Position numbers and translations under genes: made by a program. Below the pieces are notes generated by a model, which was given only the letters and a program-made list of their open reading frames with translations, made no database searches and was not told the DNA's origin. 64,000 nucleotides of DNA from NCBI GenBank assembly GCA_024743435.1, contig JANSWO010000004.1, positions 124,001 to 188,000 on the forward strand, written 5' to 3'. This DNA comes from Pseudomonadaceae bacterium (lineage in GTDB: Bacteria; Pseudomonadota; Gammaproteobacteria; Pseudomonadales; Azotimanducaceae). Below, piece after piece: positions 59,641 through 64,000 of this stretch (within the stretch, counting starts at the first letter, position 1; every line of letters begins with the position of its first letter).

Positions 59641-61161
59641 ATGCTCGAACGATACGTTAAGAAAATCCTTGCGTCGCGGGTCTACGATGTTGCCGTCGAG
59701 ACGCCGCTGCAAAAAGCGCCAACGCTGTCTGTACGCCTTGGCAACGAGGTGTGGCTCAAGCGGGAAGACTTGCAGCCCATCTTCTCGTTCAAGGTGCGCG
59801 GTGCGTACAACAAGATCGCCGGTCTGTCCGAGGCCGACCGCGCCAAAGGCATCGTCGCGGCATCCGCCGGCAACCATGCCCAGGGCGTTGCGCTGGCTGG
59901 CCGCGAGCTCGGCATCAAGACCATTATCGTGATGGGCCGCAACACCCCCGATATCAAGATCGATGCCGTGCGTGCTCTCGGCGCGAAGGTGGTGCTGCAT
60001 GGCGATACGTTCGATGAAGCCAAGCTGCATGCAGATGAACTCGTCAAAAAGCACGGCTACGTCTTCGTTCATCCGTATGACGACCCTGACGTCATCGCTG
60101 GCCAGGGCACCGTGGCGCTCGAGATCTGCAATCAACACCCTGGCTTGCCGGATGCGATATTCGTGCCCGTCGGCGGCGGCGGTCTCGTTGCTGGCGTTGC
60201 CGCGTATGTGAAATACGTGCATCCGTCGATCAAAGTGATCGGCGTTGAGGCCGAAGGCTCCGCGTGTCTCGATGCCGCCATGAAGGCCGGGCGCCGCGTT
60301 CGGCTGCCAGCGGAGACGCTGGACCTGTTTGCCGATGGCGTCTCCGTTGCTCAAATCGGCAAAGAGACCTTCAAGATCGCGCGCCGTTATGTGGACGAGG
60401 TCATCACCGTCAACACCGACGAGATCTGCGCCGCCGTCAAAGACACCTTTGATAACGTGCGCTCCATCGTCGAGCCGTCCGGCGCGCTGGCACTGGCCGG
60501 ACTCAAGCGATACGTCGAGCGTGATGGTGTTTCGGGTCAGCACCTCATTGCCATCGCCTCCGGCGCCAACATGAATTTTGATCGGCTGCGCCACATCAGT
60601 GAGCGCGCGGATGTCGGCGAGCAGAAAGAAGCCATCTTCGGCGTCACCATCGCTGAACGCCCAGGCAGTTTTCGCCGTTTTTGTCAGGACCTCGGCAAGC
60701 GCTCGGTTACCGAGTTCAACTATCGATATGCGGGTGAGACTGACGCGACAATTTATGTTGGCGTTGGTATCAAAACCCTGGACGAGCGGCGCGAGATTGC
60801 AGCGAGCCTCACTAAAAAAGGCTACGCCGTTGTCGACATGACCGACAACGAAACCGCGAAGCTGCATGTGCGGCACATGATTGGTGGTCGGTACGCGGGC
60901 GCGTCAGAAGAGCTCATCTATCGATTTGAATTTCCTGAGCGGCCCGGCGCCCTCATGAAATTTCTTAACGGGCTCGGCAGCAGTTGGAACATCACCATGT
61001 TTCACTATCGCAACCATGGCGCTGCGTACGGGAGGGTCTTGGTTGGGTTTACCTCGGCTAACGGCGGTGATGAAAGAAAGCTGAAAGCGTTTCTGAAGAA
61101 GATTGGTTATCGGTTTTGGGAAGAGAGTGATAACCCAGCGTATGAGATGTTTTTGGATTAA
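59641..61161 (+). CDS. ilvA: biosynthetic threonine ammonia-lyase
   Basis: PLP enzyme forming 2-oxobutyrate for isoleucine; generates the enamine that RidA removes. 506 residues: PLP Lys in [35 protein letters not shown], and two C-terminal ACT-like regulatory domains ([31 protein letters not shown]), the isoleucine-sensitive form. The 29-bp inverted repeat begins one base after the stop. Confidence 0.96.
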
Positions 61162-61254
61162 TGGGGACAGGACCAAGTGCCAGGTCCGATTTGCACCCCA
61201 TGAGCAGAACCGCGCGACCGTACCTATCGGACCTGGCACTTGGTCCTGTCCCCA
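61162..61254. repeat. perfect 29-bp inverted repeat with a 35-base centre
   Basis: 61162-61190 and 61226-61254 are exact reverse complements (29/29). The outer ends read TGGGGACAGG and CCTGTCCCCA, a GGGGACAG...CTGTCCCC pattern typical of the palindromic elements mobilised by REP-associated tyrosine transposases. The element fills the gap between ilvA and the next gene. No transposase is in the window. It could also fold in RNA and end the ilvA transcript. Confidence 0.9.
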
Positions 61255-61287
61255 CCGTTTCTGTAGTTGTATCGAAGGATTGCTCCA

Positions 61288-61689
61288 ATGGCTCTGACTC
61301 GTTCAGCTAAATGGTTTGTCTACTACTCATTGCTTGCAGCAACGCTGCACTTTGTCGGCGAAACGTGGATTCACCTCCTATACGGTCAGTTTTTGCCAAT
61401 GCTGATCGTTGATTACATTGCGATTGCTTTGGTGATTCTGGGTGCGCTTGGCCTGCTGAGATTTGGCTGGGGGCCTGGTCTACTCTGTGGTGATTGGGGC
61501 TTCACGTTCTGTTTGAACTATCGAACATTCTTTTGGCGTGTTGAAACGATGCTTAACGACACATCTACAACCGTTATTGAGAACACGGCGTATGTACTCG
61601 GAGTGGCGCTAGTATTCTCGGTGCTGGCATTTTTCTACTCAGCGTGGATTTGCATCCAGAATGAGAAAGCCGCTCTAGAGCGGCATTAG
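61288..61689 (+). CDS. small polytopic membrane protein, family not recognised
   Basis: 133 residues from ATG 61288 with AAGGA ahead of it. Hydrophobic segments near 12-30, 38-60, 65-75 and 98-122 suggest three or four TM helices. An ETWIHLLYGQ stretch and a Trp/Tyr-rich middle are notable. An in-frame TTG adds seven residues. The last codons contain a 16-bp palindrome (61669-61684), GCCGCTCTAGAGCGGC. The following 200 bases (61690-61889) have no gene I can support. Confidence 0.6.
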   Translation: MALTRSAKWFVYYSLLAATLHFVGETWIHLLYGQFLPMLIVDYIAIALVILGALGLLRFGWGPGLLCGDWGFTFCLNYRTFFWRVETMLNDTSTTVIENTAYVLGVALVFSVLAFFYSAWICIQNEKAALERH

Positions 61690-61889
61690 CAGCTAGAAAC
61701 AAGAAACAGGCGCAGTTCGTGCTGCAATTCCTTCTTGTACATGGTCCTGATCCCAGGTGTTGCACCCGTGTCAGCGTTAATCGATTACTTTGACCCGATT
61801 CCTCTTCGACTTCCGCCTATATCTGTAGCCGTTGATCCCGTTGTTCCGACGACGAATGCAAGGCGTGGTAGATATAGAAAGGAACTGAA

Positions 61890-62318
61890 GTGAGAAAGCT
61901 GTTCGTCTCAGTGGTGTGCTTGTTTCTTCTGCCGGCATGTACCGATTCGAGTGAGTGTGAACTGTGTGGAACTTGGCAGCTGCATGAAGAGCGGACGCTC
62001 GCGGATTTTTACGCGAATGGTGGCAAGAGGCTTCTTGAAGAGCAGAGCTATACAGTGGATGAGTGGGTAAATGGCCACTCGGTTTGTGAGTACGAACCCA
62101 AACTAGTTAGATGTTTCGATAGCTCGGAGATGGAGCCGGAGGGTGCGGAATGGTCACCCTATAAACTAAGTGACGGCGGTACTGATCAAGCGACTATCCA
62201 ATATCACTTATCTGGCGTGCCAAACATTCTCCCGATGTCGATCCGGTTCTATGAAGACTGTTATGCGACCGGTAGTGACGAAACGTTTCACACCCACTTT
62301 TGCAGGGTAGAGGAGTGA
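61890..62318 (+). CDS. small lipoprotein, unknown family
   Basis: 142 residues from GTG 61890, with AAGGA eight bases upstream. Lipobox LLPAC places Cys at residue 17, so the mature protein is membrane-tethered. After it, SSECELCGTWQL and later Cys residues (VCEYEPKLVRCF, EDCYATG, HFCRVEE) suggest several disulfides. Family not recognised. Looks AT-richer than the ilvA side. Confidence 0.6.
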   Translation: MRKLFVSVVCLFLLPACTDSSECELCGTWQLHEERTLADFYANGGKRLLEEQSYTVDEWVNGHSVCEYEPKLVRCFDSSEMEPEGAEWSPYKLSDGGTDQATIQYHLSGVPNILPMSIRFYEDCYATGSDETFHTHFCRVEE

Positions 62319-62418
62319 GGGCTGAGCCGAACAACTGGCCCAGAATAATTTGTCTAGATCTTCGCTGTGTTTTCGCCGTGCATCCTGAAACAGATATGAA
62401 AGTGACTGGTAGGCGATT

Positions 62419-62949
62419 TTGACTGGCTCTGTGTATCGATCTGCTCAGATATTCACGATCTCTATCTTCCTTTGCGTCGGATGCTCAGGACCTCCGATTC
62501 AGTGGTCACTCAATGCCGCGGACAATGTATGCGCGCTGTTTGGCAGCATGGAAGATGTTGGCAGGTATGATCGAATGTACAGGCTAGTCGTGTACAAATA
62601 TGTTGAAAGCACTCCGCAGGAGAGCCGTGAGGCATGGCTGCAGGGGCAACAGGCGATCATGCTTTCTATCAGCTCTCCGGCATTCAAAGGAGTTGCCGAA
62701 GAAAAAGTGGTCGGTTTGCGAGCGTTAGTTCAAAACGAATGGGTCGATCTGGAGCTCACATCGGACTCAGCTCGAAAGAGTAACCAGGTGTTTTTCATCA
62801 CTTCCGAGCGAACTCCCAAGTTACGAGAAACGCTAGAGGCTGGTACGCTAAAAATTCGATATCAAACGATGTCGACCACCGGGAACGATACGCTTAACCT
62901 GGGTCTGATGGCGTTTGCGTTGGACAGCTTAGATGCATGCGCCAGTTGA
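62419..62949 (+). CDS. putative lipoprotein, unknown family
   Basis: About 176 residues. The frame begins after a stop at 62410; possible starts are TTG 62419 or GTG 62431, neither with a good ribosome site. The signal region ends FLCVGC, a lipobox. The rest has a beta-rich look (GLRALVQNEWVDLELTSDS; FFITSERTPKLRETL). No recognised family. 100 non-coding bases precede it. Confidence 0.5.
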   Translation: MTGSVYRSAQIFTISIFLCVGCSGPPIQWSLNAADNVCALFGSMEDVGRYDRMYRLVVYKYVESTPQESREAWLQGQQAIMLSISSPAFKGVAEEKVVGLRALVQNEWVDLELTSDSARKSNQVFFITSERTPKLRETLEAGTLKIRYQTMSTTGNDTLNLGLMAFALDSLDACAS

Positions 62950-63053
62950 TATGCGGGTGATGGTAGGGGGCGGGATCAAATGCGAGGCTCAGTTGTTCTG
63001 CGATTGGTTATGTTATGGGTCTCTCACCTCCGCTTTAGGATGCGTAAGCAGCG

Positions 63054-63530
63054 ATGGATCTAAGTCTTGTATTCGGAAGCCTGACCAATCTTTTCGTACT
63101 GGGTTGGCTAATGCTCGTAGCGGGTGCTCTGCTAGGAACACACTCACGGGCGCGGGCAAGGCTTCTTTTTCTCGGTGGACGTGCCATTCCACTGCTCTTG
63201 CTGGCGGCATTCTGTATTGGGTGGGCTGCTACCAGGCACCTTCCAGGAGATATCTACTCGTTTGAAGGTGTGCTGGCAGCTTTCTCGGTACCGCAGAAAG
63301 CGCTCAACGCATGGGTCGAGGTGTTGGGGCTCGCGTTACTCGCGTCTCGATGGTTGATTGACGACTCCACGGCAAGGGTAATGCCAAGGCCGTTGTTGCT
63401 GCCGGCGCTTGTAGCCTGTTTTTTTGCCGCGGCGCTTGGCCTTGTTACTTACCTTCTAATTCTCGGCGGATGGAATCTTTGGACCAAGAGAGCAGGCGCG
63501 GGGCAGCGCGAGCCTGGCAAGTCGACCTGA
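63054..63530 (+). CDS. ABA4-like (DUF4281) family membrane protein
   Basis: 158 residues, about four TM segments. MDLSLVFGSLTNLFVLGWLML at the start and SFEGVLAAFSVPQKALNAWVE, then LALLASRWLIDD, follow the DUF4281 pattern (LEGVxxLF...WxHxLAFDLFxGRWIxxD), although the usual His and Asp of the third segment differ. Plant ABA4 acts in neoxanthin synthesis; bacterial members have no assigned role. ATG 63054; weak ribosome site. Confidence 0.6.
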   Translation: MDLSLVFGSLTNLFVLGWLMLVAGALLGTHSRARARLLFLGGRAIPLLLLAAFCIGWAATRHLPGDIYSFEGVLAAFSVPQKALNAWVEVLGLALLASRWLIDDSTARVMPRPLLLPALVACFFAAALGLVTYLLILGGWNLWTKRAGAGQREPGKST

Positions 63531-63627
63531 AGAATCCGCGGCATCCACTTAGCCAGGCATCGGTCCCGCTCCCTGATCGGTGCGTTGGCCGCGGTCTCGG
63601 TCACCGTCCGCTCGCGTGTGCAGCTGA

Positions 63628-64000
63628 ATGATACGGCTAGATGGCCTTCGAACAGCTTTTTACATTGGTGGTGTTTCTGCTCTGCTCGTCCATGAGATGG
63701 ATGCCGTTATGTTCGCGGAGTGGCGGCTCCTGTTTGGGCTAAGAGATTTCCCTGATTCTGTCGCCTACCCAACCTTCCTGCTGTTACACCTACCCATTCT
63801 ATTCACGCTATTGTGGTTTGCTCGGCACCCCAAGATTGAAGTGCAGCGTCGATTCCGTTTCTGGACGGCACTCTTCCTGCCGACCCATGCTTGCATACAT
63901 GTGTATGTTTCGGGCGATCCAGAGTATGGCTTCGTATCCGTCGTATCGAATCTACTGATCTATGGGTCTGCAATGCTCGGTTTGATCTATCTGGCGTTAG
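63628..64000 (+). CDS. membrane protein, truncated by the window edge
   Basis: From ATG 63628 (after an in-frame TGA at 63625) an open frame runs to the edge: 124 codons so far. It begins MIRLDGLRTAFYIGGVSALL and continues with VHEMDAVMFAEWRLLF, a His-Glu-x-Asp-Ala motif seen in the DUF6713-type small membrane proteins, then three more hydrophobic segments. Family assignment tentative. Confidence 0.55.
   Translation, partial: MIRLDGLRTAFYIGGVSALLVHEMDAVMFAEWRLLFGLRDFPDSVAYPTFLLLHLPILFTLLWFARHPKIEVQRRFRFWTALFLPTHACIHVYVSGDPEYGFVSVVSNLLIYGSAMLGLIYLAL

Follow-up and report, generated by a model that had tools for sequence, protein, structure and literature searches.

The perfect inverted repeat lying directly behind ilvA in the window, the whole 64-kb stretch of DNA that was analysed (G000:C9:124001-188000), is very probably a miniature inverted-repeat transposable element, a non-autonomous relative of the TIRtrons, being short and non-coding and carrying the ends of an autonomous element. 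Its family would probably consist of such MITE-like elements copied by a TIRYT, landing mostly nearby and often just behind stop codons. The features concerned are the following.

59641..61161, + strand: ilvA (threonine dehydratase), its 3' end abutting the element
61157..61162, + strand: putative left boundary hexamer ATTAAT, containing the ilvA stop codon
61163..61187, + strand: left terminal inverted repeat, the 25-bp family arm GGGGACAGGACCAAGTGCCAGGTCC; the perfect match reaches 61162-61190
61188..61228, no strand: centre of 41 nt, without genome-wide conservation and closest to the centres of the other units in the C9 swarm
61229..61253, - strand: right terminal inverted repeat, equal to the left arm in reverse complement; the perfect match reaches 61226-61254
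61254..61259, + strand: putative right boundary hexamer ACCGTT, its last two letters being the family mark [CT]T
61255..64000, + strand: start of a low-GC (51.7%) insert of small genes, which runs on beyond the window

As the sequence-only reading had described, the arms 61162-61190 and 61226-61254 are complementary in 29 of 29 positions around a 35-nt centre. The ilvA stop codon TAA occupies 61159-61161 and the left arm begins immediately after it. The element measures about 91 bp from arm to arm, or about 103 bp with the putative boundary hexamers, and is the sole inverted repeat longer than 12 bp at a gap of ≤100 nt in the 64 kb, while among 60 order-2 Markov counterparts of the window the longest was 14 bp. 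Folded as single-stranded DNA it gave -39.3 kcal/mol (z = -10.2).

Arms, units and transposase genes

Searching the genome for the 25-bp arm in the form GGGGACAGG[AT]CCAAGTGCCAGGTCC gave 90 forward and 73 reverse matches at ≤3 mismatches, 163 in all, and none for the reversed control. The exact grammar GGGGWCAG-N(3-6)-AGTGCCAG was matched 73 times, again with 0 in the control. A single copy without a related transposase, which according to the sequence-only reading would favour a plain terminator or a chance palindrome, is therefore not what the genome holds; the copy count and the transposase search it had proposed both came out positive, the latter with the IS200/IS605-like Y1 gene TIRYT1, which has the same flanks. 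The arm was missing from 56 of 57 genomes of the same family and order.

Besides the many units that are inverted doublets of 91-95 bp there are arrays of several arms, in which modules of 13 bp (GGGGACAGGTCCA, AGTGCCAGGTCCA) are tandemly expanded to as many as 10.8 copies, the array of 10.8 copies lying at L039:5219-5359 (C13, about 130.2 kb). Across the genome the arms are 95% identical to their consensus. The two arms of a unit share their deviations, 28 being matched vs 12.5 expected, a number reached in 0 of 5000 shuffles, and 31 plus-minus doublets carry matched arm changes. That a single arm forms its own hairpin (GGACC...GGTCC) was considered and rejected as a general property, because many arms read GGTCC...GGTCC.

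Two genes with the Y1_Tnp domain (PF01797) were found in the genome. TIRYT1 (C1:703319-704005) encodes a Y1 HUH tyrosine transposase of 214 aa scoring 49.5 bits against PF01797, where the cut-off is 23, and is bounded by arms of the window type, with an arm array before it and one inverted arm after it. Its motifs NHVH and YIELNP are invariant or nearly so across 7 homologs. The best NCBIfam model was REP_Tyr_transpos at 61-74 bits, under the cut-off of 80, and no solved structure matched the sequence at E ≤ 0.01. TIRYT2 on C3 (20.1-20.9 kb) is 57% identical to TIRYT1 and has another arm on its flanks, GGGGTCAGAGTAAAGTGCCAGAGTA, which this genome matches at 10 places, so that each transposase goes with its own arm; the arm types differ in the word adjoining the constant GGGGWCAG and AGTGCCAG parts. 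Arms of the GGGGTCAGAGTAAAGTGCCAGAGTA type also occur at C1:44169 and C1:249449. In G312, belonging to another genus of the same family, this type is spread over many contigs, and since the GGGGTCAGAGTAAAGTGCCAGAGTA family is dispersed and unclustered, short-range landing is not a rule for all TIRYTs. Homologs of the transposase with ≤51% identity were seen on plasmids, e.g. Iodobacter NZ_CP025783.1 (L104), and such plasmid-borne homologs are a possible route between genomes.

TIRYT1 has orthologs in Pseudomonadales MAG_142 (71%) and Gammaproteobacteria SI034_bin39 (67%), each flanked by GGGGACAGGACCAAGTGCCAG arms, and GGGGACAG arms in agreement with GGGGWSAS stand on both sides of all three genes. 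A decayed copy of a TIRYT1 ortholog, also with arms, was found in HXMU1422-5. In MAG_142 (genome G058) 32 arms were found, most of them within 13 kb around the transposase gene, and most of the sequences inside them are the left or right end of the transposon. This 13-kb stretch holds an intact 807-bp element together with derivatives of 734, 604, 521, 358, 138 and 135 bp, and four of these shorter forms retain pieces of the transposase reading frame. Read from sequence, the series shows a miniature form arising from a full element by internal deletion. In the window genome the centres are weakly similar to the subterminal DNA of TIRYT1, also outside its own swarm, so this descent is shown for the relative only; the 91-bp copy of the window presumably arose by the same internal deletion.

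Local swarms and the boundary mark

The distribution of the units was analysed with the genome-wide exact-grammar matches only, 66 arms forming 37 units. A neighbour within 10 kb was found for 34 of the 37 (92%), where simulation gave a mean of 16% and a maximum of 51%, and the units occupied 18 bins of 20 kb vs 34 expected. On C9 every unit was found within 185-193 kb. The centres agree better within swarms (0.636) than between them (0.518, with 0.505 for shuffled letters), a difference that was reached in 0 of 20000 permutations, although the most similar centre comes from the same swarm in no more than 15 of 25 cases. By eye, the outer flanks are not common to neighbouring units, so the unit itself has spread. 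The units lie preferentially behind genes: 33 of 47 gene 3' ends facing a unit are within 30 nt of it, vs 5 of 45 facing 5' ends, the gene calls coming from a simple script. A search of the available literature found no report of such local clustering.

Outside the arms a short mark was found. Among 82 pooled outer flanks, 74 have C/T at position 5 and 65 have T at position 6; positions 1-4 vary almost freely, A being favoured at 1, and there is no conservation past position 6. The left hexamer of the window copy, ATTAAT, has the family state T at position 6 and A instead of C/T at position 5, and this copy fits the mark in full on its right side only. In MAG_142 positions 4-6 of the flank are A-A-T. 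A comparison by eye of the left with the right boundary hexamer in several units showed no direct repeats indicating a target-site duplication, and GTAG and GTGG are absent at the foot of the arm consensus and in the free positions outside the arm. The simplest reading is that [CT]T is a putative cutting mark at a constant spacing from the base of the hairpin. In E. coli the dinucleotide cut by TnpA-REP is a CT next to its REP, and a Marinomonas enzyme chooses its site with the help of the GTAG guide (PMC8266576); by analogy, the [CT]T mark may parallel this cutting dinucleotide.

Short-range re-insertion is the preferred reading of the clustering and local gene conversion is its rival. The latter supposes that the units are old and immobile and that conversion between neighbours keeps the centres of a swarm and all arms alike. 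Wide differences between the centres of different swarms do suggest age, and conversion is expected to favour neighbours, but it leaves unexplained both the 92% of units with close neighbours and the fixed boundary mark, and MAG_142 has its deletion series locally. Gene conversion is accordingly considered unlikely as the source of the pattern.

Comparison with known systems

Ends and motifs identify the system as TIRtron/TIRYT, subclass 2.1, as these groups are defined in PMC3733652 and PMC6006769. According to the former, the hallmark of TIRYTs, the sister class of the GTAG-REP transposases, is ends of the consensus GGGGWSAS, which the element ends GGGGACAG match. TIRtrons as described there share with the present family a Y1 tyrosine transposase gene enclosed by terminal inverted repeats of the GGGGWSAS type and the additional TIR copies throughout the genome as singles, dimers and groups, and here too the TIR has further copies forming a repeat family. 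TnpA-Y1 subclass 2.1, equal to RAYT group 1, has NHVH and YIELNP like TIRYT1, the motifs being compared with Table 1 of PMC6006769, and likewise a region beyond the Y1 core, with 214 aa here and a subclass median of 238. No REP-like sequences adjoining subclass 2.1 genes were detected in that study, whereas here there is a large family of end repeats. The family is a further TIRtron member. Two of its properties, the swarms that each have centres of their own and a boundary mark peculiar to the lineage, are not described for TIRtrons in the available part of PMC3733652.

The REPINs and RAYTs of Pseudomonas fluorescens SBW25 (PMC3116915) resemble the present units in being extragenic inverted doublets with a spacer and a hairpin, whose presumed mobilisation in trans is by an HUH transposase with these repeats on its flanks. 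In contrast to them, the units here have no GTAG head, are fewer and are strongly clustered; the SBW25 doublets were reported to be random in extragenic space, and the units here are not. The TnpA-REP enzymes of E. coli, Stenotrophomonas and Marinomonas (PMC8266576) have the cutting dinucleotide CT or CA by the hairpin foot, of which the putative cutting mark [CT]T is reminiscent, but the GTAG guide is absent here. The sequence-only reading had assigned the ends to REP-associated tyrosine transposases. The mobile palindrome and its Y1 transposase stood, while the ends proved to be the GGGGACAG ends of TIRYTs, without the GT[AG]G head. A classical GTAG-tagged REP or REPIN of a group 2 or 3 RAYT, which would likewise give extragenic inverted doublets and a bounded Y1 transposase with REP_Tyr_transpos as its best NCBIfam model, is improbable, given the missing GT[AG]G head, the 61-74 bits against the cut-off of 80, and NHVH and YIELNP, which fit subclass 2.1.

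Gene context and proposed mechanism

In 5 of 8 relatives (L092-L096) a peptide deformylase gene in convergent orientation comes about 10-75 bp behind ilvA, and beyond it lie the 5-FTHF cyclo-ligase gene and a zapA-like gene. Here ilvA is separated from the peptide deformylase gene by the element together with about 4.7 kb that hold mostly small genes. The earlier claim that the element marks the border between conserved genes and small genes is borne out on its left side by these relatives. The first approximately 3.3 kb of the insert have a low GC content and stop at a decayed unit, C9:188589, outside the window; with the element on one side and this decayed unit on the other, the tract could be a composite passenger. 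From 61255-64000 in the window on to C9:188588, the insert encodes hypothetical proteins, an ABA4-like protein and a DUF6713 protein. Two units of the C9 swarm have a 6S RNA gene between them (L027:7513-7713, C9 about 191.5 kb), and an Rfam scan of the swarm region gave this RNA and nothing else. IlvA ends in ...FLD here and in readable relatives mostly in ...FLR, V, K or G; with this ending, and with the stop codon inside the hexamer, the insertion may have overwritten both the last codon and the stop.

The position directly behind the ilvA stop codon, the strong hairpin and the preference of the units for gene 3' ends would also suit a plain transcription terminator of ilvA. Such a terminator is highly improbable, as the element has no T-run, no terminator match and a centre of 35 nt in place of the short loop of a GC hairpin, and identical arms flank the transposase and recur genome-wide; the sequence-only reading had rightly doubted a simple terminator. 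A side effect of the element on the transcript, as an end or a stabiliser, is possible. An array of integron-like cassettes, with the 92-bp palindromes in the role of attC sites between small genes, could account for the small low-GC genes between the units C9:185163 and C9:188589 (decayed), but it is scarcely credible with a C9 swarm lying mostly among core genes (peptide deformylase, 5-FTHF cyclo-ligase, 6S RNA), units in tandem, convergent and divergent gaps alike, and arms that bound a Y1 transposase.

For the preferred reading, mobility by a TIRYT, a course of events may be proposed from the biochemistry of IS200/IS605 and TnpA-REP. Replication would expose a single strand on which the arms fold to a hairpin, and the transposase would cut at the dinucleotide just outside the arms and rejoin the excised strand elsewhere. 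Re-insertion would take place mostly near the donor, so that a swarm would stem from a local founder and keep its own centre, and the arms would remain alike, since movement is limited to arms that are recognised. Copies would persist mainly just behind stop codons, where harm is probably least. More tentatively, and with somewhat less than even confidence, the family may re-insert mostly within about 10-20 kb of its donor, the miniatures forming separate local populations with their own centres and a shared arm specificity, and the short mark outside the arm may be a lineage-specific cutting site that has changed among relatives, being [CT]T here and AAT in MAG_142.

In the literature available, descriptions of TIRYTs draw on sequence only, and these transposases are regarded as less productive than RAYTs. 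The present genome and MAG_142 together offer a productive TIRYT family with an autonomous element, intermediate deletions and a miniature end-product, and the flank statistics provide the footprint of a likely cutting site. The contrast with REPINs, which are spread at random, opens short-range transposition to testing in a simple system of two components.
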